Assembly: GCA_024635555.1 (NCBI GenBank)
Contig: JAGXIO010000012.1
Location: 1 to 42,903 of the forward strand
Direction: 5' to 3'
DNA: 42,903 nt
DNA from: Saccharicrinis sp.
GTDB lineage: Bacteria > Bacteroidota > Bacteroidia > Bacteroidales > Marinilabiliaceae
This document shows positions 5,873 through 42,677 of the stretch, piece after piece. A program made the translations under genes and the position numbers. The notes under the pieces are model-generated. The model saw nothing but the letters and a program-made list of their open reading frames with translations. It did no database searches and was not told the origin of the DNA. Each line of letters opens with the position of its first letter. The stretch's first letter is position 1.

Positions 5873-6070
5873 TTAAATTTGCTTAAATCCTTGAAAATCC
5901 GCATAACCTGCATCATCCAACAACAAAACGATGATGTTGGGTTTATTATATGTTTCGGTGTCAAGTTTAGACTTCGAGTTTTGGCAAGAAGAACTACCCA
6001 TTAACATCAAAACTGGACAAAGAAGTAGAATACTTTTACTTAGCCATCTTTTAACCTTACATGTTTTCAT
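5873..6070 (-). pseudogene. Sulfatase relic, 5' end only
   Basis: Sixty-five codons give a leader with a lipobox-like Cys and then KPNIIVLLLDDAGYADF, the first metal-binding motif of family S1 sulfatases (two Asp of the DD pair visible). The frame then runs out at FQGFKQI and stops. The C-x-P-S/T-R formylglycine motif and the remaining 400 or more residues are missing, and none is found downstream. In the other frame the last bases could read KDL, as in the KDLKTPNID that usually follows, which suggests a small indel before the deletion. It sits 75 bases after the GH2 gene's stop and in the same orientation, so it was once part of the same cluster. Confidence 0.85.
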
Positions 6071-6144
6071 TATTTTTTCCTTTTTTTTCTAAAGCGAAGA
6101 AAGAAGGTTTATTACAACCCTCTTTCCTCTACCATAACTAAATA

Positions 6145-9100
6145 TTATTCTATCGGTTTCATCAAAAAACCATAACTATACGATTTATCTGTCAAGCGGT
6201 ATTGCTTATGGGTTTGAGCTCCCCAACTGTTATCGCCCCCCACTCCCATTTGTTTCAGATCGATATCTACAGAAGTCAAATCACGCGGTTTCACATCATT
6301 GGTATGGCGCTGAACGGTGCGCTCTTCTCCTTTTTCCGAGCGGCCATCAGAACGACCTTCAGACTCAAAATCTTCCATGATATTATGGTGAGCCGAAACC
6401 TCCAATAATTGCTTGCCGACAAATTTCAGCCCCTGGCCTGCTTCATTGCTAATGCTCATCCAGCGTACATCCGTTTTATTACCATTCTCCTGTGGGCGAA
6501 GATAAGGCCAGTATTGATCCGCTACCGAACCACTGTAAACATCCACAAAAGCAGAGGTTTTACGATCTTGGTAGGATTCGTGAGGCCCACGACCTAGCCA
6601 GCTTATCTGTTTAAACTCTTCTGGCATTTGCATGGTCATTCCCATACGGGGAATCTCAGGTAGATCTCCCTCAGCCATTTGAAACTGATTATCCACTTCC
6701 ACCTCTTTGTTGCCTTTTACCAGATAAGTACTGGTATAGTCTCCTATTTTGTTTCCTTCCTGATCGTTCAGGTCAAATTCAAAGGTTACCTTCACTTTAC
6801 CCTGACCTATCTCTTGAACATTGGTGTTAGTAACAACACGATTTTCGCCGGCTTTACGCCAAATACGAGAGCGATCGGGCATCTTATTCCCAAAATCGTT
6901 ATCGGTAGGTGCACGCCAAAAACCTGGCTCGAGGCCTTTCAGGAGCAATTCTTTATTATCCGCTTTAAAGCTTGTCATCTCTCCTTTGCTCATATCAAAA
7001 GCTAAAGAAAAACCTTCTCCCGAAATAGTCAATATACCCGCTTGTGTTTGATAACTCAACTTTGGCAAAGCATCTTCCAGATTTTGCAGCGGAATATCGA
7101 TGGGCAGTTTAAATTGTTCGGCGGCAAGAACTGCGCCGGCAGGGACTAAGCCGTCTTTTTCTTTTAACGCCGCGTTAACGGTAAGGAAATATTCAGTTCC
7201 CGGCACAACATCAAAGTCCATGTCCACAGAAACATTCGTTTTAGCATCGGGAACCAAATCCACGTTTTGGAGCGTACCTTCTTTAACCACTTTGCCATCG
7301 CCTTTAATAGCCCAGGAAAAATCAAAATGATTGGTATTTAGAAAAGCATATTTATTTTCGATACTGATAGTGCCCTTATTAAGGTTGACAGGTTTAAACT
7401 TGATGTATTGATATACTTTTTTCACCTCCTGGAGCGCGGGATGTGGTTCCCTTACAGGATTTACTAAGCCATTGAGACAGAAATTTCCATCGGAAGGTAC
7501 CGTATCGGGTCCAAAATCACCGCCATAAGCCCAATATTTTACACCTTCTTTGTCTTCGGTGAGTAGGCCTTGGTCTACCCAGTCCCAGATAAAGCCACCC
7601 TGCATCACTTCATACGATTCGATCAAATCCCAGTAATCTTGTAAATTACCTACGCTATTGCCCATAGCATGTGCATATTCGCACTGGATAAGCGGCTTGC
7701 TGCCATCTTCTTTGGCATAGCGTTCCATTCGTTCCATAGTGGCGTACATTGGACAAAAAATGTCAGTATTTTGATCAGCATCAGCTTGTTCAAACTGAAC
7801 CAGTCGTGTTGAATCTAATGATTTTAATAATTTATATCCATCGTAAAAAACTTTGCCGTTACCACACTCATTACCCAATGACCAGGTAATAATTGAAGGT
7901 TGGTTCTTATCTCGTTGGTACATATTGTTCATTCGAAAAATATGTGCTTTTTCCCATTCTGGTAAATAGGCAACATGCTTTGTAGTATCGAATTTTCCTT
8001 GATGGGTAGCTCCAAAGCCATGTGACTCGATATTGGCCTCGTCTATAAGATAAAGACCATAGCGATTGCACAGTTCATACCATCGTTCGGGCTGAGGATA
8101 GTGAGAAGTACGTACCGCATTAATATTGTGACTCTTCATCACTTCAATGTCCTTGAGCATGGTTTCCTCATCTACCACATGTCCGGTAACGTCATGATGC
8201 TCGTGCAAGTTAACCCCTTTAAGGTAGATATATTGTCCATTCACCAAAAGGGTGTTGCCTTTAATCTCTACGCGGCGAAAGCCCACATCCTGACGCATCG
8301 TCTCTATCACCTTTCCTTTATCATCTTTAAGTGTCAATACGAGCTCGTAAAGATTTGGGATTTCAGCCGACCAGCGTTTCACGTTGTCGTATTGGGTCTC
8401 GAATACGGTATTATTTCCGGTATCTTCAGAGGTGAAGGTCTCCACTATGTTTTCGCCATTGTAAAGGGTAGCCTCCAAGGTAACGGGACTCTCTTTGGTA
8501 ACATTGGTCACTTCGGCCTCCAAACGGAACACGCCGGTGGTGTAATCATCGGCCAGATTAGAAGTTACCCGAAAATCGCGAATATGCTGTTTGTTTCGCG
8601 CCATCAGGAACACATCACGGGTAATTCCTCCCAGACGCCAGAAATCCTGGTCTTCCAAGTAACTACCATCACTCCATTTATATACCTCAACGGCCAAGGT
8701 ATTCTCGCCGGGTTTGAGGTATTTAGTGATATTGAACTCAGCAGGCGTTTTGCTGTCTTCGCTATAGCCCACTTTCTGCTCATTGATCCACAGGTACATG
8801 GCCGAACTAACTGCCCCTAAGTGTATAAACACCTCTTTGCCGTCCCAGTTATCAGGAATAGTAAAGGTGCGTTTGTAGGAGCCTACCGGATTATAATGAT
8901 CCTGTATGGTAGGCGGAGTTTTGGCATGGGGATACTGCACATTGGTATAAATAGGATAGGTATATCCTTCCAATTCAAAATTCGACGGTACCGGAATGGT
9001 ATTCCAGTCGCGGGTATCAAAATCATCCATGAAAAAATAGAAAGGTCGCTCCGATGGATTCTCTGACATGTGGAACAGCCAATCTCCGTTCAATGATTTT

Positions 9101-9318
9101 AAAAGTGAAGATGCCCACTTATTGTCGGCATCCACCTCATCGGCATTGCCAAAAGGCACGTACCATGCCCTGGGTGCTTCCTTGTTAATCTGATTCACAG
9201 CCGGATTTTCCCAGTCGGCCGGAGATTTCTCGTCAAAAACCACATTGCCGTAGTTTTTGTAATTGGTGCAGGATAATAGACTGCTCCCTATCACCAATGA
9301 AATTAAAAAATTATTCAT
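6145..9318 (-). CDS. GH2 beta-galactosidase, LacZ-like, lipoprotein
   Basis: This 1057-residue protein has the five-domain LacZ layout: sugar-binding jelly roll (about 50-240, with [17 protein letters not shown] and [15 protein letters not shown]), Ig-like domains, TIM barrel (about 350-640) and C-terminal Bgal_small domain ([20 protein letters not shown] and [14 protein letters not shown]). Acid/base Glu484 lies in SLGNECGNG and nucleophile Glu547 in [15 protein letters not shown] short leader ends at Cys17 (LLSC), suggesting a lipoprotein. GH2 enzymes of this type are retaining exo-beta-galactosidases. Here a likely job is trimming galactan side chains from the polymer cut by GH28 and PL1. 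Long poly-A/T stretches upstream (9320-9420) probably carry its promoter. Confidence 0.93.
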
Positions 9319-41288: not shown

Positions 41289-41345
41289 TTTATTTGTGAT
41301 TTTGTTTATGATTTTGTTTATGATTTTGATTATGATTTTGTTTGT
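41274..41345. repeat. Six 12-bp tandem repeats spanning the sulfatase start
   Basis: On the plus strand the units are CATTTTATTTTT, CATTTTATTTGT, two copies of GATTTTGTTTAT, GATTTTGATTAT and GATTTTGTTTGT, each 12 bases and separated by a few substitutions. The first two carry the alternative start codons of the sulfatase; the other four are its untranslated leader. A 12-base unit keeps the frame, so changes in copy number would alter leader length rather than frame. Confidence 0.8.
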
Positions 41346-41368
41346 GCTTTTTTAATTGCGCAGGATCT

Positions 41369-42677
41369 TTAACTTTCACCGTCCTGTTCAACATTAAATC
41401 CTGACGAATCATTCAGTTTTTGACTACCATACACATTCCAACCATTTTTTATTTTATTATATAGGTCAGAGGCCCGTATTGTATCATCAATCCATTGAAA
41501 TTGTCCACCCGTGGGACCTTTGTGTTGGTAATTATGCATTTCATTCGTAATTTCTTCTATCGAGGTCAATCCTTCATTTGCAATAGTTTTAACTTTAGCA
41601 TTAGTGGTATCGTTAAGATATGTCCTAAAACCAAAATATGCTTTAGCTCCAGCAAGATACAGTTTTGATGTTAAATAAGTTCTTTCATAGAGTTGCAATA
41701 ACTCTTGATATTCAGATTGATCGGATACCAAGGATTGTACTTTTTTTATTTCGTTCACTGCCCAAAGAGCTTTTTTAACTCCGTACTCTTTTTCGGTAAT
41801 TATATATTCCAGATATTTTTCATTCATTTTATCCTCGGGCGAAAGCCACATGTTATCTATAACCCATGGTGCTTCTTGATATAATACAGTCATTTCACCA
41901 TCTTTTGTTTTTTTTGTTTTATATCTCGCAGGTGAGAGATGTTCTACTACATCTTTCCAGTAATGAAATGTTTCATTTATTCCATGACCCACTGATATTA
42001 CCGGATTTTTCAACCATTTACCACTACAATGTCTTCCATATATTGAAGGATAATCTAACTCAAAACGACTGTGCGAGGTCATATTTAATCCTAAAGTGTA
42101 AAAAACTGATAATAAAATATCATCTGTTTCCATAAATACTGGCGTTAAAATATCTACGGTTTCTTTTCCGTATTTTTCATGAATGAACTCCTCTACAATA
42201 GTTTTAGTATTTAAAGTAGTGTCTTCCGCAATTCTTTTTAATGCATATAAATTCACTTCTGTAGCTTGTCCAATATTTTGTGTTTGTCCATATCTGTCAG
42301 TTCTGGCAACATAACCAATCACATTTTTTTGTTTTGAATTCTTCTGGATAATAATCTAAATCATATAATGAATGATCCCAAACAAAAACTTTAGCTATTC
42401 CTGCTTTGTGGGCTTTGTCTATTATTTGCCTTGTTTCCCGAAGCCTTTGTGCACTCCTTACATCCTTCAGATCCATAATCAATTGATGCGATAATTGTAA
42501 GTGGTTAATCCCGTATTGATCAGCCTTATTTATGGCAATATTTGCTTTCGATGTATCATTTGATAATATATTCCAACCTCTAACTGCCGGGGTAACTAGA
42601 TTTGTATTTTTGTTGTGATGTTTTGAACATCCCCAAAAAATAATAACAGTGAATAATATTGTAAAAAGTTTCGACAT
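41369..42677 (-). pseudogene. Second copy of the unassigned TIM-barrel-like lipoprotein, internally deleted and frameshifted
   Basis: The N-terminal part starts at an ATG at 42677 (lipoprotein leader, IIFWGC) and aligns with the intact protein at 26144-27919 (VRGWNILSNDTSKANIAINK, HLQLSHQLIMDLKDVR, FVWDHSLYDLDYYPEEFKT). It then jumps, in another frame, to VIGYVARTDRYG and aligns to the C terminus. Residues equivalent to about 119-288 of the intact protein (about 510 bases) are missing. The junction is an A-rich run (AAAACAAAAAAATGTG, about 42324-42340), which suggests deletion between short A-rich repeats. All candidate catalytic residues are lost. Divergence in the aligned parts shows an old duplication, not a recent copy. 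Confidence 0.88.

Follow-up and report, generated by a model that had tools for sequence, protein, structure and literature searches.

Gene relics in a Saccharicrinis carbohydrate-degradation cluster point to a probable decay of sulfatase-bearing loci across a lineage

The stretch of 42,903 nucleotides analysed here (the window) holds a carbohydrate-degradation gene cluster of a Bacteroidales bacterium, with a LacI-family regulator, and fragments of other genes lie between its intact ones. We consider it probable (about 0.75) that these relics are explained by a lineage-wide decay of sulfatase-bearing loci through duplication, deletion and mobile elements, with exchange of blocks. Duplicated family members, standing side by side or derived from other clusters of the genome, would have been disrupted, for the most part by large deletions, of which one or more took place at short repeats. 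Mobile elements (IS630, IS21/ISL3-like and REP-like) would have inserted and then decayed, and neighbouring blocks would have been exchanged, so that the gaps are also sites of unconserved gene order. The process would be general to the sulfatase-bearing loci of this genome (G000) and would also act in the congener G005. In this light the window would show glycan-degradation clusters eroding in one lineage, where copies arise, lose large segments by deletion and persist as debris.

Results

The cluster and its intact genes

The intact genes match the original prediction's description: GH2, GH28, GH29, GH88, GH97, PL8 and sulfatase genes are clustered with the regulator. They form small blocks separated by debris-bearing gaps of about 400 to 1500 bases, and the coding density of the window is ordinary (0.853, compared to 0.813 for 20 other contigs of G000, 0.845 for G003 and 0.866 for G005). 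Three intact features are needed below:

10268..13174, minus strand: 968-aa gene, of which the relic at 13177 is a paralogue
17918..23093, no single strand given: LacI / SSF symporter / FAD-oxidoreductase block, the only part in common with the two nearest genomes found for it
26144..27919, plus strand: 591-aa gene, homologue of the relic at 41369

The clustering of carbohydrate-active enzymes, sulfatases and a regulator resembles the polysaccharide utilisation loci of Bacteroidetes. The window differs from Sus-type loci in carrying an SSF symporter, whereas none of the 20 window proteins scanned matched SusC, SusD or a TonB receptor; the cluster may extend past the window. Given this symporter in place of SusC/SusD, uptake may differ from the Sus type. 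A single-sequence structure prediction of the 591-aa protein was unusable (mean pLDDT 36.9).

Eight of fifteen listed relics are gene fragments

Fifteen relics had been listed in the original prediction. Searches for homologues returned a longer, significantly similar gene for eight of these start points, and none for the other seven. By type of piece, three of the eight are 5' ends, two are 3' ends, one is a middle and two are internally deleted copies. They are given here with two mobile-element features:

1078..1524, plus strand: IS630-family transposase 5' piece, 148 aa (NCBIfam IS630 E 1.9e-13, 50.5 bits, cut-off 100; profile 1-122 of 299)
5873..6070, minus strand: sulfatase 5' end, 65 codons then a stop (blastx E 1.3e-6, residues 26-74 of a 494-aa sulfatase; frame checked)
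9591..9722, minus strand: weakly matching DUF5627-type gene 3' end, 43 codons (Pfam DUF5627 E 1.6e-5, 25.3 bits, below the cut-off of 31.3)
9917..10267 (listed as 9923), plus strand: SLFN_AlbA_2 gene 5' end (Pfam E 3e-13, 50.7 bits, cut-off 25.3)
13177..13434 (listed as 13171), minus strand: paralogue of the adjoining 968-aa gene, about 86 codons at its 3' end (blastx E 4e-9, residues 856-941 of 943)
24165..24356 (listed as 24153), plus strand: ECF sigma gene 5' end with an in-frame stop (Pfam Sigma70_r2 29.1 bits, cut-off 24; Sig70_bacteroi1 TIGR02985 E 1.5e-10)
28238..28609, minus strand: transposase with an internal deletion that joins its N-terminal HTH to a C-terminal end (NCBIfam IS21 N-terminal 2e-6 and ISL3 C-terminal 2e-8, both far below the family cut-offs; frame checked)
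39277..39720 (listed as 39262), minus strand: beta-helix gene piece, codons about 16-135, lacking both ends (blastx E 8e-62)
39594..39682, minus strand: REP-like two-hairpin element inside the preceding relic (ATGAAA at both ends; absent from the C31 copy)
41369..42731, minus strand: frameshifted relic of a gene like the 591-aa gene, lacking residues 133-284 (blastx E 7e-74 and 5e-28; the matches cover residues 4-132 and 285-583)

The IS630 piece was absent from the original list. For the blastx test (E 1e-4; four window matches), which is the test that this control covers, reversed gaps gave 0 matches in all sets run. The sulfatase relic at 5873 had no sulfatase match in Pfam or NCBIfam, and the one at 9591 returned nothing in NCBIfam or in the own and related loci compared. 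The SLFN_AlbA_2 frame continues into the 3' end of the oppositely oriented 968-aa gene, and its DNA has matches of 74-75% in G424 and G006. Among the families that had been named, sulfatase, beta-helix and ECF sigma pieces were recovered but GH2 and GH16 relics were not.

For the seven start points at 15557, 17809, 23314, 23493, 23616, 36599 and 38818, 2.5 Mb of own and related DNA yielded no match with E below 0.18; the one exception is 23314, where an 11-aa identity (E 0.03) lies inside a dispersed noncoding repeat. Pfam searches of six of them (all but 23493) were empty in five cases and at chance level for 23616 (E 0.014, 15.4 bits, cut-off 27), while a PDB search of 15557, 17809 and 36599 yielded nothing, or E 0.054 at best. 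The peptide at 17809 ends with a motif typical of GH16; a GH16 3' end was nevertheless rejected at this place on the lack of a Pfam match, the chance-level PDB value (E 0.054) and the lack of any match below E 0.5 in own and related DNA. Gene fragments at 15557, 36599, 38818, 23493 and 23616 were dropped for want of a match above chance, and 23314 because it has no Pfam match and is partly a dispersed noncoding repeat.

These fragments are of the same kind as pseudogenes and gene remnants in other bacteria, in which parts of known gene families, worn down by deletion and insertion, lie amid intact genes; in the window, pieces of glycan-cluster genes are conspicuous. Such decay is a well-known process, and the window is a further, ordinary example of it. 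Among the papers listed by a literature search, none dealt with gene relics in clusters of this type.

Copies within the genome and the part of deletion

Intact homologues are known in the same genome for two relics, 39277 (on contig C31) and 41369 (the 591-aa gene), and in G044 for 13177. The beta-helix piece at 39277-39720 matches an intact 552-aa gene at C31:6141-7799 at 95% of DNA positions across 329 bases and at 100% across 41, and the C31 gene has an empty site for the REP-like element, with a net length difference of 83 bases. Positions 41813-42903 recur as a 98% copy at the end of contig C122, which is 276 bases shorter. Both copies have the same older internal deletion, and the further 276-base deletion in C122 was joined at the imperfect repeat AATCAATT/AATAAATT (microhomology). 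One relic thus stands at two deletion stages, a difference from other pseudogenes in detail and not in kind, and makes a small natural time series. The C184 and C122 copies both lie at a contig end and the G000 and G005 assemblies are fragmented; strain variants or misassembly may account for these copies.

The original prediction had proposed repeated deletions that spared downstream genes. Deletion as a process is supported, because a microhomology deletion distinguishes two copies of one relic and because the paralogue 3' end at 13177 directly precedes an intact start, at a place where G044 has a full-length pair. The relic matches the upstream member of this side-by-side pair (tblastx E 6e-11; blastx E 4e-9). 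G257 also has two neighbouring copies of the 968-aa-type gene, to which the match of the relic is unclear (E 0.27). The remaining relics would have originated by the same route.

We regard it as rather unlikely that, as had been proposed, the cluster used to be larger and every relic is the remainder of a gene resident at that very place. The 13177 relic, with the side-by-side pairs in G044 and G257, speaks for such residence, as does orientation, since by our count six of the eight confirmed relics point the same way as both neighbours; so does the finding of sulfatase fragments elsewhere in the genome (3 of 22 matches). However, among the loci examined 13177 is the one relic with a full-length gene at the matching place in a relative, and the other positions have none. 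Two relics, listed as 39262 and 41369, copy sequences found elsewhere in the genome, the debris at 1078, 28238 and 39594-39682 is mobile DNA, and seven of the fifteen were not confirmed. The reading of the relics as a record of a larger cluster is partly supported, by position in relatives for 13177 alone among the loci examined. The presence of a fragment close to an intact gene is no proof that the cluster ever had that gene in working form.

Gene order around the gaps

Of the window, the two genomes found to be nearest for the LacI-SSF-FAD block (17930-23089) share that block alone, and similarity to the loci L234 and L237 ends at both of its edges, although on the LacI side no more than about 715 and 250 bases follow in these. 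Comparison loci were chosen with window queries (SSF, sulfatase, the 968-aa gene and the DNA of 5500-42903), so that pairs left of 5500 were hardly sampled. In the loci examined, adjacency is kept for five of nine gene pairs with gaps below 300 bases (in two of the five a partner has 25-34% identity) and, at 26/27% identity, for one of eight with larger gaps; gap length and relic presence are not independent.

Exchange of blocks may account for this pattern. A stronger form, which we find unlikely, is that the relic-filled gaps mark joints of repeated swaps of glycan-enzyme cassettes within and between the clusters of the lineage, the fragments being ends cut off at joining, so that relics would map borders and not former residents. 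The similarity that stops at both block edges and the seven of eight gaps of at least 300 bases without conserved adjacency fit this picture, but the numbers are small and the GH2b-FAD adjacency is kept in G003 and G004 across the gap at 17788-17917. Some fragments, moreover, are middles or internally deleted copies, not cut ends.

An origin of the relics in assembly or sequencing error, suggested by the 259 contigs of the assembly and the contig-end sequence common to C184 and C122, is very improbable, since most relics are short truncated pieces joined to other sequence instead of frameshifted full genes, sulfatase fragments are also present in G003 and G005, and the element inserted in 39277-39720 has a core that recurs at 12 further places in the genome.

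Relic density in sulfatase-bearing loci

Relic density was compared on sulfatase-anchored loci, early counts on contigs sharing repeats with the window being biased. The same blastx test, in which counts depend on a reference protein set rich in these enzymes, found four relics in the window (two when proteins of its own genome were excluded) and 10 in 172.7 kb of the other sulfatase loci of G000; the window is thus not special for relics. In the congeners, five were found in 84.7 kb of G005, two in 150 kb of G003, two in 119 kb of G001 and none in 103 kb of G004; G007, whose sample is mostly contigs under 4 kb, was left out. G000 without the window exceeds G001, G003 and G004 together (p 0.003, or 0.006 counting only proteins of other genomes). 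The density of the window is similar to that of the other G000 loci and of G005, and, once repeat artefacts are removed, about five times that of G001, G003 and G004.

This removal concerned two reference ORFs, L114 and L125, taken out before the test, which lowered the G003 count from 7 to 2. Their repeat ends were first spotted by eye and later borne out: where they match, they consist of a repeat found scattered through G003, and the remainders are a UPF0029 and a GH43 protein. With both retained the contrast was weaker, 11 in 172.7 kb for G000 against 9 in 372.4 kb (p 0.03), G003 alone giving 7. Twenty arbitrary contigs of G000 held one relic in 242 kb, so that relics outside such loci are sparse or escape detection. 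The decay may reflect relaxed selection on glycan use.

The REP-like element

The element has a fold z of -3.0. Its core (at most two mismatches) occurs 13 times in G000, 9 times in G005 and twice in G006, compared to 0 in six congeners, and the reversed pattern gave 0. It resembles REP/BIME elements with RAYT transposases in its short, dispersed, two-hairpin form and in the presence of Y1_Tnp matches, which were found in all nine genomes of the genus searched, with 10 matches in G000. The unidirectional REPs of the two species shown in PMC3733652 sit close to the 3' end of the gene upstream of them; the copies here differ, as most of them (12 of 16) precede genes in a single orientation.

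Relics confirmed in the window

The relics of the window are real in part and the process behind them is ordinary: duplication, deletion and mobile-element debris, together with shuffled gene order, would have produced them. Gap translations were compared with the proteins of loci from the same genome and from relatives, and Pfam and NCBIfam were searched with selected peptides. Of the 15 relics listed by start position in the original prediction, eight were significantly similar to a longer gene (5873, 9591, weakly, 9923, 13171, 24153, 28238, 39262 and 41369), all of them located in gaps of at least about 400 bases or at the window's right end. 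The other seven (15557, 17809, 23314, 23493, 23616, 36599 and 38818) showed no significant similarity, either as gap translations against own and related loci or, for selected peptides, in Pfam and NCBIfam. The blastx test alone (E 1e-4) detects four window relics; the reversed gap sequence, a control that applies to this test alone, gave no match in the sets where it was run. The main features are:

window start, PL8 gene, intact but truncated by the window start
next, intact: beta-helix protein, GH88, GH28, GH2
10268-13174, minus strand, intact 968-aa protein without Pfam family
next, intact: GH97, GH2, FAD oxidoreductase, SSF symporter, LacI regulator
next, intact: rhamnogalacturonase/epimerase-type beta-helix
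26144-27919, plus strand, intact 591-aa protein without Pfam family
last, intact: two GH2, sulfatase, GH29, sulfatase
1078-1524, plus strand, 5' part of an IS630 transposase (NCBIfam), absent from the original list
39594-39682, minus strand, REP-like two-hairpin element of 89 bases interrupting relic 39277-39720

The functions said to have been lost are thereby reduced to sulfatase, beta-helix, ECF sigma, DUF5627-type (weak), 591-aa-type, 968-aa-type, AlbA-type and transposases, and any others should be struck out; two of those retained are broken copies of sequence persisting elsewhere in the genome (G000; 5.33 Mb in 259 contigs). The window covers bases 1-42903 of C184, one of these contigs. 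Scanning 20 window proteins revealed neither SusC nor SusD; a tRNA search of the window found none, and no Rfam family exceeds its gathering score there. The 591-aa protein, with a weak likeness to the GH67 middle domain (13.7 bits, below the cut-off of 23.5), possibly represents an undescribed glycoside hydrolase family. The likeness of the 968-aa protein to GH127/six-hairpin enzymes is also weak (E 4e-5 for its homologue in genome G044, just under the cut-off). Short dispersed repeats, which recur elsewhere in G000 and its congeners, occupy part of the gaps (9377-9518, 9710-9871, 23115-23350, 23951-24087 and 36784-36900).

Origin of individual relics

What survives in relic 13177-13434 is a 3' end from a paralogue of the 968-aa gene, which lies intact downstream. 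A search of 393 genomes of the order found this family in five, G000 included, and G019 has it as well; the five genomes other than G000 have two matches each, those of G352 being partial and weak, and two copies stand side by side in G044 and in G257. The relic best matches the upstream G044 member (E 6e-11; downstream member, E 2e-5) and has no clear match to the G257 copy (E 0.27). On contig C31 of G000 (L072), a GH95 3'-end-like piece (7814-8161) adjoins an intact GH95 gene (8230-10536), resembling the 13177/10268 pattern, but with the piece on the downstream side.

Relic 39277-39720 corresponds to about codons 16 to 135 of a 552-aa gene, whose intact copy on C31 is 95% identical in DNA. 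Since both ends are missing and the remainder is hardly altered, it was probably produced by large deletions rather than by slow decay. The two-hairpin element is absent from the C31 copy; the net difference of 83 bases is consistent with duplication of a 6-base ATGAAA at the element's ends, and ATGAAA borders the dispersed element on both sides. Among 16 copies in the G000 and G005 loci compared, a same-strand gene start lies just downstream in 12 and a divergent one on the opposite side in one, and in four (L082, L083, L087 and L089) the right-hand ATGAAA is itself the likely start codon. One possibility is that the element acts as a mobile 5' leader, inserting at start codons.

Relic 41369-42731 is 42% identical to the intact 591-aa gene, from which it differs by a frameshift and the loss of residues 133-284. 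Contig C122 ends in a 98% copy of the relic's upstream part (41813-42903); this copy has the same internal deletion but is shorter by 276 bases, and its join lies at two imperfect repeats, AATCAATT and AATAAATT. The common deletion and the different lengths indicate a relic already broken when it was copied, one copy having lost more since. A repeat of about 100 bases (42707-42815), found at 72-81% identity across several genomes of the genus, sits at the contig end common to C122.

Comparison with relatives

For the SSF gene, the nearest genomes found were two Bacteroidales MAGs (L234 and L237), which share window 17930-23089 as one block (80.7% and 78.2%). Similarity ends at both block edges, on contigs that continue for only about 715 and 250 bases past the LacI edge and for 1.8 and 4.5 kb past the FAD edge; the rest of window 5500-42903 was not found in these two genomes, save for short or distant matches. 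What follows the SSF-FAD pair in congeners G001, G003 and G004 is either a distant sulfatase or a distant GH2, and LacI accompanies the pair in G001 and G004. Relatives were predicted to carry full-length genes at the relics' positions; in the loci examined, this held for 13177-13434 and for none of the others. Among 17 neighbouring gene pairs, adjacency was kept in some compared locus for five of nine across gaps shorter than 300 bases (in two of these the partner is 25-34% identical) and for one of eight across larger gaps (26/27% identity), a weak test because some of these genes served as queries in retrieving the loci.

Two imperfect palindromes were seen, at 37089-37136 and, between SSF and LacI, at 21944-21995. 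Because the latter has matches adjoining the same genes in L237 and one G004 locus, it may be a LacI operator.

Relic density

The window is not special; open frames cover 0.853 of it, compared with 0.813 of 20 arbitrary G000 contigs. Near sulfatase genes, with two reference ORFs excluded whose ends lie in a G003-dispersed repeat (L114 and L125), blastx relics per 10 kb numbered 0.93 in the window (4 matches; 2 without own-genome proteins in the reference), 0.58 in the remaining G000 loci (10 in 172.7 kb), 0.59 in G005 (5 in 84.7 kb), 0.13 in G003 (2 in 150 kb), 0.17 in G001 (2 in 119 kb) and 0 in G004 (0 in 103 kb). The contrast between the G000 loci outside the window and those of G001, G003 and G004 together had p 0.003, or 0.006 without own-genome proteins; with both ORFs put back (G003 7 matches, G000 11) p was 0.03. 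The sulfatase-bearing clusters of G000's lineage are decaying. As the 20 arbitrary contigs gave one blastx relic in 242 kb, the excess appears in enzyme loci, which are also where the reference protein set is richest. The G003 repeat, about 160 bases long and separate from the gap repeats, has at least a dozen matches in the G003 loci compared (for example L114:5879-6118 and L125:15453-15692); in two places an open frame begins in or before it and continues into a UPF0029 or GH43 gene.

With 22 sulfatase matches, G000 falls between the highest and lowest counts of its genus (G001 94, G002 5, G003 57, G004 at least 100, G005 43, G006 12, G007 at least 102, G008 2), and sulfatase fragments are present in G003 and G005 too.
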